Source: Verrucomicrobiota bacterium
GTDB lineage: Bacteria > Verrucomicrobiota > Verrucomicrobiia > Palsa-1439
Direction of reading: 5' to 3'
Assembly: GCA_016871575.1 (NCBI GenBank)
Contig: VHCW01000024.1
Coordinates: 1 to 54,039 of the forward strand
Length of the DNA stretch: 54,039 nt
In this document: positions 3,547-33,469 of the stretch, in pieces
Position numbering within the stretch: the first letter of the stretch is position 1
Layout of the letters: each line of letters opens with the position of its first letter
Notes under the pieces: model-generated
Database searches by the model: none
What the model was told of the DNA's origin: nothing
What the model saw: the letters and a program-made list of their open reading frames with translations, nothing else
Made by a program: the position numbers and the translations under genes

Positions 3547-3560
3547 CGAAAGTAGTTGAC

Positions 3561-3620
3561 GGAACGCCGCCGTCTCGGCGGTCGCAGTTTGGCTCGAAAC
3601 CGCCGAGACGGCGGCGTTCC
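3561..3620. repeat. GCCGCC-type palindromic repeat (22-bp perfect arms)
   Basis: The 22-bp arm 3561-3582 (GGAACGCCGCCGTCTCGGCG plus GT) is the exact reverse complement of 3599-3620, with a 16-base loop. Each arm is itself partly self-complementary (CCGCC-GTCTC-GGCGG). It lies in the 141-base gap between the glycosidase-like gene and the secreted amidohydrolase gene and could act as a terminator or as a REP-like mobile repeat. There is no T tract after it. Related GCCGCC palindromes occur inside a gene at 17401-17431 and 18354-18416. Confidence 0.9.
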
Positions 3621-3687
3621 TGTCCAGAGAATTGCACTACACCCTGAGATTGACTTCGAGCGCGGAAATCCTACACTCGCGCGCACC

Positions 3688-15828: not shown

Positions 15829-16584
15829 TCAGGATTTGTATTTCTGTTGCACAATTCGCACAACAGGCTCAATGCTCGTCCACGCATCGCAGGCGATATC
15901 AATGCTTGCCTGCTTGTGATTGCAGCGATGATAACGGTCAAGACGAATTGGCGGGCTGGATGGGGAGGCTTGCCCGGAACCGTGGCTTATCAGGCAGATT
16001 GGTTTGCCACAAAGCAATGCGAGAAAAGCCAGGCCGGTATCTGTCGCAATAACAACTTTTGCCGACAGCATCGCTTCCAGTGTTGCGTCAAGGAAACGTT
16101 CATACGCCCATGCCTTGTGCTGCCCGACATCTTCGCTCGAATCCGGTGCTCCAGCAGCGAAGACGCGGTGACTGCTCGCCAATACTTCATAAAGCTGCGG
16201 CCAGAGTTCCCAATTCCTCACCGACCCATATCGGCGCTTGCGCGGGCAAATCACGATATCGCAGGTGATGCCGTACCGCACGCGCGGTTCTGGAATAAAA
16301 AACTCAAGTGTGCGGCGCTGTGGCCGCACCAATTCTGCCGCTGCATATTTGGAAGACAGTTCGCGCGTCAGGCGTTGGTAAAGTTCCTCGTCGGAGTTCA
16401 TCTTCTCTCGCCGGTTGGCATCGGCGTTGCGCTCGACCAGAACATATTCCTTTGCGCCGGGGAAAAGGGCTTCTTCGCCTTCTTCACAGCAGACGACTTT
16501 TTCGTCTTTGCAGTGATGGACCGTCGGCACGTGCCACATGATCTTGTGGCCGAATTCTCCGCGATAGGGCAGGAAAACTATCAT
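15829..16584 (-). CDS. GT9-like glycosyltransferase
   Basis: A 251-residue protein with the layout of heptosyltransferase-type enzymes. Its N-terminus is MIVFLPYRGEFGHKIMWHVPTVHH. The C-terminal block LDATLEAMLSAKVVIATDTGLAFLALLCGKPICLI corresponds to the GT9 'D-T-G-x-x-H' region, but with Ala-Phe where the usual His would be. It is shorter than most GT9 enzymes. The ATG at 16584 overlaps the previous stop and replaces the longer frame from 16647. It could be a degenerate or regulatory member. Confidence 0.6.
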   Translation of the reverse strand: MIVFLPYRGEFGHKIMWHVPTVHHCKDEKVVCCEEGEEALFPGAKEYVLVERNADANRREKMNSDEELYQRLTRELSSKYAAAELVRPQRRTLEFFIPEPRVRYGITCDIVICPRKRRYGSVRNWELWPQLYEVLASSHRVFAAGAPDSSEDVGQHKAWAYERFLDATLEAMLSAKVVIATDTGLAFLALLCGKPICLISHGSGQASPSSPPIRLDRYHRCNHKQASIDIACDAWTSIEPVVRIVQQKYKS

Positions 16585-18587
16585 CACTTCCGCACCCGCG
16601 ACTTGGCGAGCCGTTCGTGCAGCCGTTCCGCTACCATGCGTTTCCAAGCTGTGGCATCGTGACGATGATCTTCCGCGTTCCGGCTCAGGTTTCTGAGGTT
16701 CTCCTTCTTGTGCATACGAAGGAAATCAGGCAACGCGGTGAGCCGATAACCGACCGAATTCGGGTCCACCATGATCAACGGCACGTCCATCCCCAGACAG
16801 GGCATGGCAACGTGCAGCCGGTTGGTCACGACCAGTCTCGCCCGCTGATAGATGAGAACCCGTTCTTCCAACGCACGGAAGCGCGCTTCCGGCGAGGGAA
16901 AATCGTCTGGCCGGACACGATTGGTGAGGACGACCACTTCACCATCGAACGGCGGCAGCGACTGCGGTTCTACATCCACAAACACGACCGGCCCGGTGGG
17001 ATCGTACGGAATGGTGCGGTCAAACAGGATGGAAGGGCACGAGGCGAAGTAGGCGTCTATCCCCAGTTTTTCGCACCACCGCAGACTGTGCTTGTCGCGG
17101 CAACCAATCGGCGCGGCGGCGCGTAGGTGCTCGACCGTTGCGGGGTCGCTGTTCTTGAGCTTGCCGACGCAGAGCGCGACATAAACCGGCTCGATATTCG
17201 GTGGCGGCGGAAACGGACTGGCCGTGAAGAATCCGTTTACAATCAAACGAATTGGCCCGGCTGTCGCATAACTTGGAAAACGGTCGCGATCTACGAACAG
17301 GTCGGGCTGGCCAAGATGCTTGCACAACGCGAGACTCTGCATGTCGTCGCCGAGATTGATCGAGCGGTAACTCAGGTACGCGGTTTTCCGCTTGGGCACG
17401 ACGGCGGATACCGCCGCCGTCTCCGGCGGTCCCATTAGAGACGGAATTGTCCGGTGGCAGACTTCCACCTCTTGCGGCGTCAAGTACCGCACTGCGCCGC
17501 CCGTGAAATACAACTCGATGCGGCGAATGACTTCCTCGGCAGTGATCATGTTCATGCAACGCGGCAACAGGTGCGGCCACTCCTCGCGCGGATACGCCAA
17601 CGCATTCTTGGCCGGCGCATTGGCACCGCCTGCGGCGCTGCAAGCGCCGTCGCCGGCCAGAACCAAGTCCTCGCACATCTTGTCGGGGTTGTCTTTCTCG
17701 TCGCCGTCGCCGAGCGGCACGGCGCGGGACTTCCAACAACCGCCGTTGTCACAGCACAGCAATGCGCCGTTGGTGTGGATGTATTGATGATGCGGATAAG
17801 CCTCCCATTGCGATGGCTCGCGCCCGCCGGCCACCACAACGCAAGGACGGTTCTGCGGCATTCCCGGCTTGGTCTCGACCGCTGCCGCAAGGTGCATCAT
17901 CAATGTCACGGGGCAGAGCACGCCCTGTGCGTGATAGACCAGCCGCACCAGTTGGCGCAGATCGGTCATGCCGCGAAAATCGAGCGCGCCCTTCAACTGC
18001 TGGTGTTCATGGTTTTTCTCGCCGACCTGCACGAACAGAATCTTGCCACGGAAATAGTCCACCACTTTCTGGAACCGCTCGTGCGACCACCATTTGATGG
18101 TGAAATCACGCTTGCCGCCGGCCACAATGATCCAGAACGGCACCGGCTCCTTGGTGATCTCCTGCACTTGCGACACCCATTGCTTCTCCTGCGGCGCAAG
18201 ATGAATATCGCCTTTGAACGGGCCGGGGCGGATATTCACGCTGAGTTTCGCGCTGAGGAACTGCGTGAACCCGTGGATGAAATGCCACGGCTCCGTGTTA
18301 CTGCGGTGAATCAGCGGATACTCGCAGTCGAGAACAACGTTCGCGACCGGTGTTGTAGCAGCGCCCGTCTCTGGGCGCTTCTGCTGGGATTGACCGCCGG
18401 GACGGCGGTCGCTACACGGCTCCTTCAACGGCGTGATGTAAGGATTGTTCTCCCAGAGTTGCCCGCAAGGCGTGCGCACGTCGGTCAGGAATTGGTTGGG
18501 GTGCGACAGATGCAGGTCGCGCACCGCTGCCGTCAACATCACGATGTCACCGGGCGAGAGGGAGTTTTTGAGGATGATTTTTCTCAT
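16584..18587 (-). CDS. Fused GT9-like glycosyltransferase and polysaccharide pyruvyltransferase
   Basis: A 667-residue two-domain protein. The N-terminal half (about 1-370) resembles a GT9 heptosyltransferase: MRKIILKNSLSPGDIVMLTAAVRDL, then WIIVAGGKRDFTIKWW and GVLCPVTLMMHLAAAV. The C-terminal half (about 395-640) fits the polysaccharide pyruvyltransferase fold: TAYLSYRSINLGDDMQSLAL, GCRDKHSLRWCEKLGIDAYFASCPSILF and RARLVVTNRLHVAMPCLGMDVPLIMV. Between and within them two GCCGCC palindromes are translated in frame. I chose ATG 18587: the frame upstream reads antisense through serine-rich DNA. This pair of activities in one chain is unusual. Confidence 0.75.
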   Translation of the reverse strand: MRKIILKNSLSPGDIVMLTAAVRDLHLSHPNQFLTDVRTPCGQLWENNPYITPLKEPCSDRRPGGQSQQKRPETGAATTPVANVVLDCEYPLIHRSNTEPWHFIHGFTQFLSAKLSVNIRPGPFKGDIHLAPQEKQWVSQVQEITKEPVPFWIIVAGGKRDFTIKWWSHERFQKVVDYFRGKILFVQVGEKNHEHQQLKGALDFRGMTDLRQLVRLVYHAQGVLCPVTLMMHLAAAVETKPGMPQNRPCVVVAGGREPSQWEAYPHHQYIHTNGALLCCDNGGCWKSRAVPLGDGDEKDNPDKMCEDLVLAGDGACSAAGGANAPAKNALAYPREEWPHLLPRCMNMITAEEVIRRIELYFTGGAVRYLTPQEVEVCHRTIPSLMGPPETAAVSAVVPKRKTAYLSYRSINLGDDMQSLALCKHLGQPDLFVDRDRFPSYATAGPIRLIVNGFFTASPFPPPPNIEPVYVALCVGKLKNSDPATVEHLRAAAPIGCRDKHSLRWCEKLGIDAYFASCPSILFDRTIPYDPTGPVVFVDVEPQSLPPFDGEVVVLTNRVRPDDFPSPEARFRALEERVLIYQRARLVVTNRLHVAMPCLGMDVPLIMVDPNSVGYRLTALPDFLRMHKKENLRNLSRNAEDHRHDATAWKRMVAERLHERLAKSRVRK
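17401..17431. repeat. In-frame GCCGCC palindrome inside the glycosyltransferase/pyruvyltransferase gene
   Basis: GACGGCGG at 17401-17408 is complementary to CCGCCGTC at 17415-17422, and CCGCC/GGCGG pair again around TCTCC. It encodes the linker PPETAAVSAVV between the two enzyme domains. It shares the CCGCCGTCTC...GGCGG core of the repeat at 3561-3620. Confidence 0.6.
18354..18416. repeat. 63-bp REP-like element inserted in frame in a coding gene
   Basis: TGTAGC at 18354-18359 and its reverse complement GCTACA at 18411-18416 bound a 63-base unit made of two hairpins: GCGCCC-GTCTCT-GGGCGC (18361-18378) and GACCGCC-GGGAC-GGCGGTC (18392-18410). It is exactly 21 codons long and keeps the surrounding frame open, adding a stretch read as CSDRRPGGQSQQKRPETGAA. 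The two-hairpin layout with inverted tips is that of a bacterial interspersed palindrome or small MITE. Confidence 0.75.
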
Positions 18588-18663: not shown

Positions 18664-19278
18664 TCATGGCGCGCTGGAACTGCTGCTGCTCGATGACGAA
18701 CTGCTATGACTGGCGGAACTGCTCGATGAGGAGGACTGAGATGTCGAGGTTGAGGAGGAACTGCTGAAACTTGTCGAAGTGCTGGAGAAACTCGCGCTGG
18801 TCGAATTGCTGGATGATACGCTGGTGCTGGTGGAACTGCTGCTGGACGGACTTGTGCTCGATGACGAACTGCTGGAATGGCTCGCGCTGGTGGAGGAACT
18901 ACTGGAAAAACTCGCGCTCGTGGAAGTGCTGCTCGACGAGGAGTGGCTCCCACTGGTCGAAGTGCTCGATGAAGATGACGGGCTGGTACTGCTGGAACTG
19001 CTGCTGGAAACGGACATGCTGGAGTGCGACGACTGAGAACTGGAGGAGGAACACGAAGAGCACGAAGAAGACGACGAAGAACACGAACTGGAAACCGATG
19101 ACTGAGAACTGCTACCTGAGGATTGTGAACTGCTGCTGGAACTGATGGGCGGGTGTTGCCCGCCCACGCCCACCCGACCGGGCTTGCGTTTCTTGCGCGG
19201 ATGACGTCGCAAGGTCCGGCGACGTTCCGGCTTGCGTTCCTTGCGCGGGGATTTTTTCTTTGAGCGCCGTCTTCTCAT
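18664..19278 (-). CDS. Serine-rich protein with basic N-terminus (no C-terminal domain)
   Basis: A 204-residue protein in two parts. Residues 1-46 are strongly basic (MRRRRSKKKSPRKERKPERR, then RRHPRKKRKPG). The rest, to the stop, is almost entirely serine and threonine with single spacers such as H, F, P or Q. All six serine codons are mixed. It lacks the MKRKPQRR leader of its upstream relatives and has no folded tip, so it may be a decayed copy or a separate structural protein. No good ribosome site precedes ATG 19278. Three glycosyltransferase genes follow directly on the same strand. Confidence 0.55.
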   Translation of the reverse strand: MRRRRSKKKSPRKERKPERRRTLRRHPRKKRKPGRVGVGGQHPPISSSSSSQSSGSSSQSSVSSSCSSSSSSCSSCSSSSSQSSHSSMSVSSSSSSSTSPSSSSSTSTSGSHSSSSSTSTSASFSSSSSTSASHSSSSSSSTSPSSSSSTSTSVSSSNSTSASFSSTSTSFSSSSSTSTSQSSSSSSSASHSSSSSSSSSSSAP

Positions 19279-28672: not shown

Positions 28673-30111
28673 CAGTACTCACTAAGATTGATTGGTTTTT
28701 CAATTCCATAAGTATTGGGCTCAGGGGCAGGATAGAGGACAGTCGAATTCCCAGTTCCTGCCTCAGTCATATAACTTGGGCACTGATAATGGTTCGGAAA
28801 ATATATGTCCAAAGATTGTTCATTCGATGTTCCGAGTTGCGTAGGAAAACCTTCCGGATGAGTATGGAAGATTGCAACGACAGTGTCGCTTGGGTCATTG
28901 GGTTGTATTGATCCTATGGGCGCTGTTGGATGCTCAGCATTTCCAGATACTGCTTCACTCGTATAAAGGTTTCCCATGACATCACGGTAGATTATGACTG
29001 CTCGCTCATAGTCATCTTCTTCCGTCAATAATTTTAGTTCATCACTTGCTAGCCTCACCAGATGGAGAATCTCTCTCTCGTCAGCGCTGAGACTGCTGCT
29101 CGACGAGTTCGACGAACTGCTGCGCGACACACTGCTGGTGGAAGTGGATGAGTGGCTCGTGGACGTTGACGAGTTGCTTGTGGAACTTAGCGATTCGCTG
29201 GTCGAACTGTAGGACGTTGAGCTTGAACTGCCGATGGAATACGACGAGGAAGTCGAACTGCTCGAACTCGGCGAAGTGGAACTCGACGAAGAAGAAGATG
29301 AGGAAACGCTTCCACTGCCGGAACTGCTGCTGCTCGACGAGGCGCTAGACGAACCGCTGGTGCTGCTCGAACTCGTGCTGGATGAGGATGCGCTGGTGGA
29401 GGAACTGCTGGTCGAACTCGCACTGGCAGACGCGCTCGACGAGGACGACGAACTGCTGGGACTGGTAGAACTGCTACTTGACGAGGAGGGGCTAGTGCTA
29501 CAGGAACTGCTGCTGAAGGAGGAGTGGCTCCCGCTGGTGGAATTGCTCGATGAACTTGAATGGCTGGAAGACGAGGAACTCGATGATGACGACGATGGCG
29601 ATCCGCTGCCGGAAGAACTGCTGCTGGAAGGGGAAGTGGACGACGATGAACTGCTCGAAAAACTGCTGCTCGTCGAAGAACTGCTGGAATCGCTTGCGCT
29701 CGTGGAACTGCTGCTCGATGACGAAGAACTGCTCGGACTGGTAGAACTACTGCTGGAGGATGACTGACTGGCGCTCGTGGAACTGCTGGACGACGAGGAC
29801 GGACTGTTGCTGCTCGAACTGCTGCTGGTCGAAGAAGTGCTGGACGAACTACTGCTGGAAGAACTGCTCTGCGAAGGGGACGTGCTTGATGACGAACTGC
29901 TGGAAAAACTCGTACTGCTGGAACTCTTCGATGAGGAAGACGGACTGGTGCTGCTCGATGACGAACTCGAACTGCTGCTGGAACTGGAAGATGAACTCGA
30001 AGACGAAGAAAGCGTAAGCGCAGTCAATTCCTGCGTCTTGGAATCCGCACGAGAGGCGCGACCGCGAACGGATCGCTTCGCTTTCGTTCTTCGTTGTGGC
30101 TTCCGTTTCAT
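28672..30111 (-). CDS. Serine-rich modular protein with JAMM/DUF4329-like C-terminal domain
   Basis: A 479-residue protein: leader 1-34, serine/threonine-rich 35-337, folded tip 338-479. The tip contains YERAVIIYRDVMGNLYTSE, then VVAIFHTHPEGF (His-Thr-His-Pro at about 414-417), followed by TSNEQSLDIYF and PSYMTEAGTGNSTVLYPAP. This layout matches the JAB/MPN metalloprotease fold as in DUF4329 toxin tips, where H-x-H-P and a later S-x-x-D bind zinc. Here the serine is one residue closer to the aspartate (S-L-D), so activity is uncertain. The gene overlaps its neighbour downstream (TGATG). Confidence 0.75.
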   Translation of the reverse strand: MKRKPQRRTKAKRSVRGRASRADSKTQELTALTLSSSSSSSSSSSSSSSSSSSSTSPSSSSKSSSSTSFSSSSSSSTSPSQSSSSSSSSSSTSSTSSSSSSNSPSSSSSSSTSASQSSSSSSSTSPSSSSSSSSSSTSASDSSSSSTSSSFSSSSSSSTSPSSSSSSGSGSPSSSSSSSSSSSHSSSSSNSTSGSHSSFSSSSCSTSPSSSSSSSTSPSSSSSSSSASASASSTSSSSTSASSSSTSSSSTSGSSSASSSSSSSGSGSVSSSSSSSSSTSPSSSSSTSSSYSIGSSSSTSYSSTSESLSSTSNSSTSTSHSSTSTSSVSRSSSSNSSSSSLSADEREILHLVRLASDELKLLTEEDDYERAVIIYRDVMGNLYTSEAVSGNAEHPTAPIGSIQPNDPSDTVVAIFHTHPEGFPTQLGTSNEQSLDIYFPNHYQCPSYMTEAGTGNSTVLYPAPEPNTYGIEKPINLSEY

Positions 30112-30130
30112 CTGTCAATTGTCAGGCGTT
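30010..30130. repeat. Leader cassette copy C
   Basis: Same unit as 24729-24850. Here the 5' flank also encodes the last residues (RLTIDR, stop) of the gene upstream, whose TGA overlaps the ATG of the serine-rich gene (ATGA). Confidence 0.85.
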
Positions 30131-30887
30131 GATCCGCCCGATTCAGTCTTTCTGGATCAGATGTAAAATTGATCTTCACCTTTGGCCTGTTCGTCGCCCA
30201 AACGGGTAAAGCAGGGAAGAGCTTCTCAAACACCGTGAATGACGTGACCTCATTCGAGACAATATTGAAATGAATGCCTTTGTTGGGATAATAAAGCACT
30301 TCGGATCCCACAGGGTCATTATACCAATAAGGCCGTGCCGCATTCGCAAATGGAATGATCGCACGGAGATTCGGCGCATAGTTGCTGATGACTCCAAAGG
30401 CGGTTTCCACATCCTTCCGGCTGACACCGCCTTGTTCAAAGGAAAGCCTCCTGTCCACGGTGCCGCGAAACGGAACACGAATCTCTAAACCCGGAATCAC
30501 GCCATGCACATACGGTGTTGCATAGAAAGTGATGTTCTCAATCCGTTCCTTCTCTTTGCGCGCGCCAATGAGACCTACCGCCCCAACAGATGGAACTATG
30601 ATGAAGCCAGCGCGCGTCGTAACCCCAGTAGACCGCTTCCCGACTTGTTGCACAGTCATCCCCACTTCACATACCTGACGGACTCCCCTGCCTGGTTGAA
30701 CCGTGGGAGGAGAGTTCCGCGCCGACATTAAGGCTGGGGAGCAGCCCAACAGAATAAGCGCTGCGAGAAGCAAACGCACTAAATCAGGCCCGCGAGAAAT
30801 AGGAATCAGGCGATTCTCGTCAGCAAAAGATGCACGACCGCGAACGGGTTGCTTCGCTTTGCTTCTGCGTTGTGGCTTCCGTTTCAT
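30108..30887 (-). CDS. Lipoprotein-like exported protein carrying the serine-rich-type leader
   Basis: A 259-residue protein. Residues 1-26 (MKRKPQRRSKAKQPVRGR...) are the same leader as in the serine-rich proteins, but then the chain enters a hydrophobic export signal (LVRLLLAALILLGCSPALMS, lipobox-like LLGC) instead of a serine tract. The rest shows strands and a conserved-looking GVSRKDVETAFGVISNY... region, and is not recognised. A leader in front of a normal signal suggests that recombination replaced the original 5' end. It overlaps the next serine-rich gene by 4 bases. Confidence 0.65.
   Translation of the reverse strand: MKRKPQRRSKAKQPVRGRASFADENRLIPISRGPDLVRLLLAALILLGCSPALMSARNSPPTVQPGRGVRQVCEVGMTVQQVGKRSTGVTTRAGFIIVPSVGAVGLIGARKEKERIENITFYATPYVHGVIPGLEIRVPFRGTVDRRLSFEQGGVSRKDVETAFGVISNYAPNLRAIIPFANAARPYWYNDPVGSEVLYYPNKGIHFNIVSNEVTSFTVFEKLFPALPVWATNRPKVKINFTSDPERLNRADQRLTIDR
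30810..30887. repeat. Leader cassette copy D (coding part only)
   Basis: The first 26 codons match copies A-C, but the 5' flank has diverged (GATTAACTG before the ATG instead of ATTGACAG). Similarity ends after codon 26, ahead of the ELTALTLS end of the other leaders. Confidence 0.75.
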
Positions 30888-30890
30888 CAG

Positions 30891-31868
30891 TTAATCGTAA
30901 GAGTTGCCCCCTCGCCCAGACAGCACCAGCCGCAAACCGGAATTTCGAAAGCGTTCGCCGGGAACACCAAAGCTCCGGGCACTGGAAGTGAGATCGTCGG
31001 GGCTATAGTCGGGATATTCATGATCCATCTTAGCAAAGGCCTTTGCGTTGGATGACGTGATCTCAATGACAAGGCGGTTCTTTTCCTCGATTGTTCGCCG
31101 CTCGAAGGATCCCCCTCGCAACACGCAACCGAAGATCGCGTGGAAAGGAACTTGGAATGATTCTCTCTCAATGGACTCCGGTCGCAACACGTAGCGCTTA
31201 CCAGGTTTGGAGCCTTTGGGGTCCTGTTGCGGTTCGGCAGTATAGTTTCCATACCAGTCGCTGCACCATTCCCAGACATTGCCGATCATGTCGTAGAGGC
31301 CCCAAGCATTCGGTTTCTTCAATCCAATCGGATGGGTGGTGCCCCCGGCGTCGGATTTGAACCAAGCATACTCCCCTAATCGGCCATCGTCATCGCCCCA
31401 AAAATATTTTGTGGTGGTCCCGGCGCGGCAAGCGTATTCCCACTGTGCCTCGGTCGGCAGCGATGCTTTCCAGGCATCCAGTTTCTCATTCAACTTGGCC
31501 AAAAACGCCTCACAATCGTTCCAACTGACATTCCCCACCGGATGTTTGCCCCCTTTATAGGAACTCGGATTGTTGCCCATCACGGCCTCCCATTGCTCCT
31601 GCGTCACCTCGTATTTGCCCATGTAGAACGACTTAGTAATCGTCACTTTGTGAACAGGCTTTTCGTCTTCCCGCCCGTTTTCCGATCCCATCATGAAGGA
31701 ACCAGCGGGGACGGCGACAGCCTCGATTATGATTCCGCCGCCCAAATCCACCGTTAGTTGCTTTTCGGAACTGTGAACGCTCAGATCGGCGCTGTACCCG
31801 GTGCAGGCGCACAGCAGACAAGCGAATACGCTGCCAGCAACCGCCATCGGTTTCAGTTCATTCCTCAT
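30891..31868 (-). CDS. SUMF1/formylglycine-generating-enzyme-like lipoprotein
   Basis: A 325-residue exported protein. The N-terminus (MRNELKPMAVAGSVFACLLCACTG) is a lipoprotein-type signal. The mature part follows the SUMF1 domain closely: VPAGSFMMGSENGREDEKPVHKVTI, YEVTQEQWEAVMG, PVGNVSWNDCEAFLAKLN, LPTEAQWEYACRAGTTT, GLYDMIGNVWEWCSDWYG, RGGSF and SGLRLVL. True formylglycine enzymes oxidise a sulfatase cysteine and need two active cysteines near the C-terminus; I cannot identify that pair, and no sulfatase is nearby. It may instead be a carbohydrate- or protein-binding SUMF1 relative. I chose ATG 31868 over 31925 because it gives a clean signal. Confidence 0.85.
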   Translation of the reverse strand: MRNELKPMAVAGSVFACLLCACTGYSADLSVHSSEKQLTVDLGGGIIIEAVAVPAGSFMMGSENGREDEKPVHKVTITKSFYMGKYEVTQEQWEAVMGNNPSSYKGGKHPVGNVSWNDCEAFLAKLNEKLDAWKASLPTEAQWEYACRAGTTTKYFWGDDDGRLGEYAWFKSDAGGTTHPIGLKKPNAWGLYDMIGNVWEWCSDWYGNYTAEPQQDPKGSKPGKRYVLRPESIERESFQVPFHAIFGCVLRGGSFERRTIEEKNRLVIEITSSNAKAFAKMDHEYPDYSPDDLTSSARSFGVPGERFRNSGLRLVLSGRGGNSYD

Positions 31869-31888
31869 CGCAAATCTATGCTCTTTAG

Positions 31889-33469
31889 TTATTGTTTTGA
31901 CTGCGTCACGCCTGCGTTGCCACACACGACATTTGTGCCTATCTTTGTTGCTGTTTGGACAATTGTCTGGGAAAACGTGCCGAGTGGATAAGTGACGTTA
32001 TTTATTTTAACTGAGTAAGCAGCATTCGATCTTATCAACACTGTCTTAATGTCAACACCCAGGTAGTTTCTAAGATTTATCAAACCCGTCGGTCCATCTG
32101 GCAGAACTCCTATAGGAGAATCTTTAAACTGGCCTTGTCCATTCGTTTTCTCATCGTAATCAACATGAAGGTCGGGGAACGGTGTCGGTTGCCCGATTTG
32201 TTGTCCGGTTGAGAGATTGTAAACCGTAAGAACCTGCCCTGTGATATCTTCATGAGCTGTCACGCCAGCTTGGTTTATTGCATTGGTTCTTTGGTCGCGC
32301 ATTTGATACGTAAACTCACCACGCGTTCCGTCAGGTGCAACCTGTCCATTGGGCGTATAACCAATATTGCTTGGGACTTGCGCAAAGGTCCCTTTTGAGC
32401 CGGACTTGCCAACGGATTCACCGCCGCCAGACGCGTCGGTTGCCGTAATTTCCACATCCCCGCCGTCCCCTTCGACCAAGCCAGTTACCTCGCCCGTATC
32501 TTCATCTACTGTGGCTATGTTCTCATCGGAAGACTCCCAAGTGTATGGGGACTCGCCTCCCGAAGCCGTGAAAGGTCTTGGAAAGCCGACACACATCTCG
32601 TCCGGCCCTTCGACGACGATCCCCGCACTCGACGAACTCGACGACGCACTGGAAGAACTACCGGTCGAACTGGAAGAGTTGCTGGTGGAACTGGATGAGT
32701 GACTCGTGGAACTTGTGGACGTTGACGAGTGGCTCGTGGAACTTCTCGATTCGCTGGTCGAACTGTAGGACGCCGAGCTTGAACTGCCGCTGGAATACGA
32801 CGGGGAAGTCGAACTGCTCGAACTCGGCGAAGTGGAACCCGACGACGATGAAGATGAGGAAACGCTTCCACTGCCGGAACTGCTGCTGCTCGCCGAGGCA
32901 CTAGACGAACCGCTGGTGCTGCTGGAACTCGTGCTGGAGGAGGAGGCGCTGGTGGAGGAACTGCTAGTTGAACTCGCACTGGCGGACGCGCTCGACGATG
33001 ACGACGAACTACTGGGACTGGTGGAACTACTGCTTGACGAGGACGGACTCGTGCTGCTGGAACTGCTCGACGACGCGCTGGTACTGGTCGAACTCCTGCT
33101 CGACGAGGAGTGGCTGGCGCTGGTGGAACTGCTCGATGAACTGGAATGGCTGGAAGACGAAGAACTCGAAACACTCGTCGAGGAACTGCTGGAATGACTC
33201 GCACTGGTGGAACTGCTGCTGGACGAAGAATGGCTCGCCGAAATCGAACTGCTGGACGACGACGAGGGACTGGTGCTGCTCGAACTGCTGCTGGTCGAGG
33301 AAGTGCTGGAAGAACTATTGCTGGAAGAACTGCTATGCGAAGGGGACGTGCTCGACGACGAACTGCTGGAAAAACTCGTGCTGCTCGAACTCTTCGATGA
33401 GGAAGACGGGCTGGTGCTGCTCGATGACGAACTCGAACTGCTGCTGGAACTGGAAGATGACGAAGGCAT
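31889..33469 (-). CDS. Serine-rich modular protein lacking the leader, with Big-type C-terminal domain
   Basis: A 526-residue protein that begins directly with MPSSSSSS. The serine/threonine region (about 3-281) is closely related to those at 25382 and 28672, with the same KSSSSTSFSSS start and the YSSTSES stretch near its end. The tip (about 282-526) has an Ig-like repeat typical of Big_2 (FTASGGESPYTWESSDENIATVDEDTGEVTGLVEG, then EITATDASGGG) and a second unknown part. The basic leader is missing; the sequence before the ATG is unrelated to the leader cassette. The first gene of the island may be truncated at its 5' end or expressed differently. Confidence 0.7.
   Translation of the reverse strand: MPSSSSSSSSSSSSSSSSTSPSSSSKSSSSTSFSSSSSSSTSPSHSSSSSNSSSSTSSTSSSSSSTSPSSSSSSSISASHSSSSSSSTSASHSSSSSTSVSSSSSSSHSSSSSSSTSASHSSSSRSSTSTSASSSSSSSTSPSSSSSSSTSPSSSSSSSSASASASSTSSSSTSASSSSTSSSSTSGSSSASASSSSSGSGSVSSSSSSSGSTSPSSSSSTSPSYSSGSSSSASYSSTSESRSSTSHSSTSTSSTSHSSSSTSNSSSSTGSSSSASSSSSSAGIVVEGPDEMCVGFPRPFTASGGESPYTWESSDENIATVDEDTGEVTGLVEGDGGDVEITATDASGGGESVGKSGSKGTFAQVPSNIGYTPNGQVAPDGTRGEFTYQMRDQRTNAINQAGVTAHEDITGQVLTVYNLSTGQQIGQPTPFPDLHVDYDEKTNGQGQFKDSPIGVLPDGPTGLINLRNYLGVDIKTVLIRSNAAYSVKINNVTYPLGTFSQTIVQTATKIGTNVVCGNAGVTQSKQ

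Follow-up and report, generated by a model that had tools for sequence, protein, structure and literature searches.

A 63-base segment that is read in frame within an intact glycosyltransferase gene is, in our reading, a pair of GTAG-tagged REP sequences that inserted in this lineage, was most likely mobilized in trans by a RAYT, and is tolerated by the host protein as a loop (probability of about 0.92). The segment occupies positions 18354 to 18416 of the window, by which we mean the whole 54,039-nt stretch of Verrucomicrobiota DNA that was analyzed. The features discussed below, with the evidence for each, are as follows.

16584..18587, minus strand: host gene, 667 amino acids, GT9-like domain fused to a polysaccharide pyruvyl transferase domain, intact (open frame, Pfam)
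17868..18209, minus strand: GT9 (heptosyltransferase) Pfam match, residues 127-240
16758..17357, minus strand: PS_pyruv_trans Pfam match, residues 411-610
18354..18416, minus strand: inverted pair of GTAG-tagged REPs (REPIN/BIME-like), 63 bp, 21 residues (sequence, folding, absence from homologues)
18392..18416, minus strand: F1 REP, right half, TGTAGCGACCGCCGTCCCGGCGGTC, read in the gene as CSDRRPGG (family copies)
18354..18379, plus strand: F2-resembling REP, left half, TGTAGCAGCGCCCGTCTCTGGGCGCT, read in the gene as RPETGAAT (comparison with copies on contigs C67 and C12)
18380..18391, no strand: 12-bp spacer separating both REPs (sequence)
17401..17431, no strand: GCCGCC palindrome, untagged, excluded from the element (palindrome count versus Markov expectation)

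The 63-bp element and its host gene

The element starts with TGTAGC, ends with GCTACA, and contains two hairpins, the first with the stem AGCGCCC/GGGCGCT and a loop of 6 nt and the second with the stem GACCGCCG/CGGCGGTC and a loop of 3 nt. The two ends pair with each other and close a three-way junction over both hairpins. Folding of the element gave z scores of -5.0 as DNA and -5.2 as RNA, and none of 200 shuffled sequences was as stable. A first-pass annotation made from the letters alone had described a REP-like 63-bp unit of two hairpins with inverted TGTAGC tips, exactly 21 codons long within an intact enzyme gene. Ends, stems, and a folding z of about -5 bear out this description, and the 63 bases correspond exactly to codons 58 to 78 (CSDRRPGGQSQQKRPETGAAT) of an open frame of 667 codons, with a strong coding signal on both sides.

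Both halves carry a GTAG tag directly 5' of a short palindrome, as GTAG-tagged REPs of about 20 to 40 bp do: one consists of TGTAGC and a 7-bp stem with a 6-nt loop, the other of TGTAGC and an 8-bp stem with a 3-nt loop. As in REPINs, which were defined by Bertels and Rainey in 2011 (PMC3116915), two inverted REPs are separated by a spacer and fold as a single unit. Compared with their family consensus sequences, both halves have matched changes in the two arms of the stem, so that pairing is preserved. The left half differs from F2 (TGTAGCAGCGTCCGTCCCGGACGCT) by a paired T-A to C-G change in the stem and one additional loop base, and on sequence grounds it looks like a variant of that family.

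Is the segment absent from related proteins? A net 22 residues were missing at this position from all four of the GT9/pyruvyl-transferase homologues compared, which span 42 to 78% identity and different families. These were L042, a protein of about 75% identity encoded by a different bacterial family of the same class; L040, from a metagenome-assembled genome that bears the label Armatimonadetes; L043/L048, of a third family; and L047, a paralogue within the same genome. The gap in the DNA alignment with L042 comprised 63 bp plus one codon; the net difference from the homologues is thus 66 nt versus an element of 63 nt, and the exact boundary of the insertion is uncertain by one codon. No F1 copies were found in the genome of L042, the closest homologue. 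Because the homologues are without the 22 residues and the L042 genome is without F1 copies, the simple reading of these sequences is that the 63 bp inserted in this lineage, in agreement with the in-frame insertion that the first-pass annotation had proposed. The same residues in homologues from unrelated genomes would, by its own account, have refuted that proposal; they occurred in none of the homologues found. The element thus lies wholly within an ORF whose frame continues through it and whose homologues are without it, the pattern of an intragenic in-frame REP.

In an AlphaFold model of the host protein, built on an alignment of only 5 rows, residues 57 to 80 have a pLDDT of about 32 and lie between the strands at residues 51-53 and 83-88 of the N-terminal domain. 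That domain is mostly at pLDDT 70 to 88, and the C-terminal domain is modelled poorly. The insertion is a multiple of three bases, free of stop codons, and placed in a loop between two beta strands of the N-terminal glycosyltransferase domain. Since it keeps the frame, adds no stop, and falls between strands, the protein probably tolerates the REP-encoded segment as a surface loop of 21 to 22 residues that is predicted to be disordered.

The same annotation had taken the GCCGCC palindrome at 17401-17431 for a related element coding the interdomain linker. This we could not sustain, and we rejected the palindrome as a decayed REP: it lacks the GTAG tag and cannot be told apart from a chance palindrome, untagged CCGCC-N4-6-GGCGG palindromes being about as common as chance predicts (81 in 1.58 Mb versus about 40 to 58 expected under an order-2 Markov model). 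The closest homologue (L042) ends before the interdomain linker.

Two other features of the window were recorded. At 3560-3621 lies a second kind of inverted palindrome pair, with the ends AGGAACG/CGTTCCT in place of GTAG around GCCGCC stems; two more copies were seen (C4:10629-10690 and C10 near 37007), and the pair looks intergenic. Upstream of the host gene, at 18664-19278, an ORF of 204 codons consists mostly of serine runs (SSSSTSTS) and has a basic N terminus.

REP families and their transposases

A search of the genome for the unit, as the first-pass annotation had advised, placed the right half in a large dispersed family. This family, F1 (consensus TGTAGYRGCCGCCGTCNCGGCGGC), has 48 copies in the genome at no more than one mismatch, compared with 0 for the reversed pattern. 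For the left half, the sampled DNA contained no near-identical copy, only diverged relatives, so that the pair either is of old origin or is a hybrid variant. A second family, F2 (TGTAGYRGCGTCCGTCCCGGACGC), is also present, and inverted F1/F2 pairs are common in the genome. F1 is distributed patchily among relatives: the other genome of the genus has no copy, another genus of the same family has 34, two more have 2 to 3, and the rest of the first set of relatives has none.

The genome contains nine Y1_Tnp matches. One RAYT-like Y1 gene (C49:16382-16717, L037) has F1 copies on both sides and another inside its own frame (LQTAAGTAATTTIWQPGFFDH), so that a RAYT stands beside copies of its repeat, as expected of GTAG-tagged REPs. 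Two more Y1 genes adjoin REP copies, one of family F4 (C57) and one of family F3 (C33). Y1 genes beside family copies are the usual REP/RAYT arrangement. In the literature searched, the text of a 2013 paper (PMC3733652) included, we found no report of a RAYT with its own REP in frame. Separately, the RAYT frame at C33:39487-39702 (L038) continues downstream across a REP and into a TrpF-like domain, giving a single open frame of 400 codons, which may be a fusion or mere read-through of the spacer.

A GTAG tag followed by a stem-loop is the substrate of TnpA-REP enzymes (PMC8266576), and the element shares this signature with the TnpA-REP/REP systems of E. coli, Stenotrophomonas, and Marinomonas. 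Recognition and cutting of the GTAG stem-loop by a Y1 transposase have been shown biochemically only in those systems. The pair was most likely mobilized in trans by a Y1 transposase (RAYT/TnpA-REP) encoded elsewhere in the genome.

REPs within genes across the genome

The position of REPs relative to coding frames was assessed with a coding model trained on the genome, which called the frame of 150 nt correctly in 98.6% of cases and was applied only to the flanks outside each element. Strongly coding DNA lay on both sides of 18 of 76 REP elements. The flanks agreed in strand in all 18 and in frame in 17, and none of these 17 frame-keeping REPs contained a stop codon. In a larger sample of 2.37 Mb, REPs with both flanks coding kept one strand in 33 of 33 cases and one frame in 31 of 33 (P about 4e-13 versus an expectation of 1/3). 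Four of 34 in-frame candidates (C4, C6, C15, and C88) resembled hairpins that had arisen by chance in native sequence; when they were set aside, the frame result was unchanged. About 30 in-frame insertions are present in the sampled part of the genome, part of whose first 1.58 Mb had been picked for F1 copies, so that densities are not unbiased. The in-gene F1 copies of genome G005 likewise leave the frame intact. Only 39 of 75 REP elements lay inside predicted ORFs, though ORFs cover 83% of the DNA, a deficit that fits selective loss of damaging insertions; out-of-frame insertions would be among those removed by selection.

FolP and one UvrA have clean homologues that lack the insert. The FolP protein (C33) is longer by exactly 8 amino acids (24 nt), equal to one REP, than that of the other genus member and of most of the family; in the G005 homologue, this loop holds a different insertion. 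UvrA2 (C5:30004-32910) has 13 extra residues relative to four relatives, and the REPs of alanyl-tRNA synthetase and of a second UvrA (C5:24263-26893) fall in loops of variable length among relatives too. Other hosts identified by Pfam were MutL, MutS, RecQ, DnaX, a photolyase-related protein, PDH-E2, ABC ATPases, ETF, and a radical SAM protein. Repair and replication genes (MutL, MutS, two UvrA, RecQ, DnaX, and the photolyase-related gene) made up 7 of about 28 hosts versus 3 of 40 length-weighted random genes (one-sided Fisher P = 0.05); the random draw happened to include one UvrA. The enrichment of DNA-repair and replication genes is suggestive only.

Two observations concern these hosts. 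In relatives, a double UvrA is encoded in one frame of about 1800 codons; here there are two ORFs about 3 kb apart (L069, C5:24263-26893 and 30004-32910), with REP insertions in both. DnaX carries REPs at C44:20428-20501, and its apparent orthologue in G005, of another genus (L198), also has them in the same linker region, perhaps through independent insertion in the two genera.

In-gene REPs also favor one reading frame. The frame was tallied for true F1/F2 hairpins in those genes of this genome and of G005 whose frame is intact, after chance matches without hairpins had been removed by hand. Antisense copies used one frame in 17 of 18 cases with three open (P about 1e-7) and sense copies used one frame in 11 of 14 with two open (P = 0.03); these P values are generous, the halves of one pair being not fully independent. 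The favored peptides are AAGTAATT in one direction and VVAAVPAA in the other. In the window element, the F2-like half is in the favored frame and the F1 half in the rarer one. Selection for a bland peptide is the likely source of the bias, and an insertion-site effect a less likely one. In the literature searched we found no report of the bias, though it may in part already be implicit in the 2013 paper's supplementary list of REP-encoded residues.

Could the REP-encoded loop, or its mRNA hairpin, instead be functional in the host gene, through post-transcriptional control or as a flexible linker? We consider this unlikely. The single-frame preference is strong, the stem-preserving changes in both halves (G-C to A-T and T-A to C-G) keep the hairpins, and an action on mRNA has been proposed for intergenic REPs of other bacteria (PMC3733652). 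However, the same stem changes are found in other copies (GACC..GGTC at C76) and may predate the insertion, the inserts are at differing, unrelated sites of different genes, and the loop is predicted by the model to be disordered. A tolerated insertion, functionally neutral in its effect, would be the better account.

A native GC-rich loop that is palindromic by chance or codon bias is very improbable. The genome has a G+C content of 61% and many untagged GCCGCC palindromes, but the TGTAG tag is present on both halves, and this tag is 10-fold enriched before hairpins: 6.9% of its occurrences were followed by a G+C-rich hairpin, versus an average of 0.64% for other 5-mers of the same composition. 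In addition, the stretch is absent from the four homologues, and its right half belongs to a 48-copy family whose reversed pattern had no match. Even less probable is a pseudogene or assembly error with an accidental frame; the genome is a draft of 257 contigs, but 667 codons are open with strong coding signal on either side, and nearly all in-gene REPs keep the frame, those of F1 in G005 included. Loss of an ancestral loop by the homologues, a logical possibility alone, deserves almost no weight, given that the loop is absent at 42 to 78% identity from several families, one labelled as another phylum, and from the paralogue, and that, by exact matching, no more than 5 of the 286 class genomes contain F1 REPs.

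Relation to known in-gene repeats

In-frame GTAG REPs within genes have been known since 2013, and the inserted pair described here adds another lineage. Di Nocera, De Gregorio, and Rocco (PMC3733652) reported GTAG REPs within the ORFs of several species, as well as dimers that encode 20 to 30 residues. Opitutus terrae (Verrucomicrobia) had the most such REPs, and both of its uvrA genes carry them. The first-pass annotation, which limited such insertions to a few groups, "notably Rickettsia," was therefore too narrow. The likeness extends to the GTAG tag, the perfect palindromic stem, the many inverted dimers, in-frame insertion of about 20 to 30 residues, and the hosts, which include both uvrA genes, other repair genes, the photoreactivating enzyme, and tRNA synthetases. 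Here, in contrast, other stem families are involved, in another genome, and the host is a GT9/pyruvyl transferase fusion; the single-frame preference and the RAYT with its own REP go unmentioned in the text consulted.

REPINs (PMC3116915) also share the link to a RAYT, but they were described as extragenic, whereas this element lies within a gene and joins halves of different stem families as a heterodimer. Rickettsia palindromic elements are likewise palindromic repeats read in frame in intact genes. They end in CGTC (PMC3733652), in contrast to TGTAGC/GCTACA here, and CGTC repeats apparently have no dedicated transposase.

These data indicate that GTAG REPs spreading in frame into working genes are more than a curiosity of one isolate: in another lineage, REPs have spread genome-wide and been filtered by frame. 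Since homologous genes exist in both states, with the insert and without it, the cost of such insertions and their mechanism can be tested directly. Specialists would take an interest in the bias toward one frame and in the recurrence in DNA-repair genes. Tentatively, and at well under even odds, the REP/RAYT system of this bacterial family may be adapted to, or strongly filtered for, life in genes. If so, REPs would repeatedly supply benign, ready-made protein linkers, DNA-repair genes would be over-represented as hosts, and, of the open frames, one of small neutral residues would be nearly the only one in use, even within the transposase that probably moves the REP.
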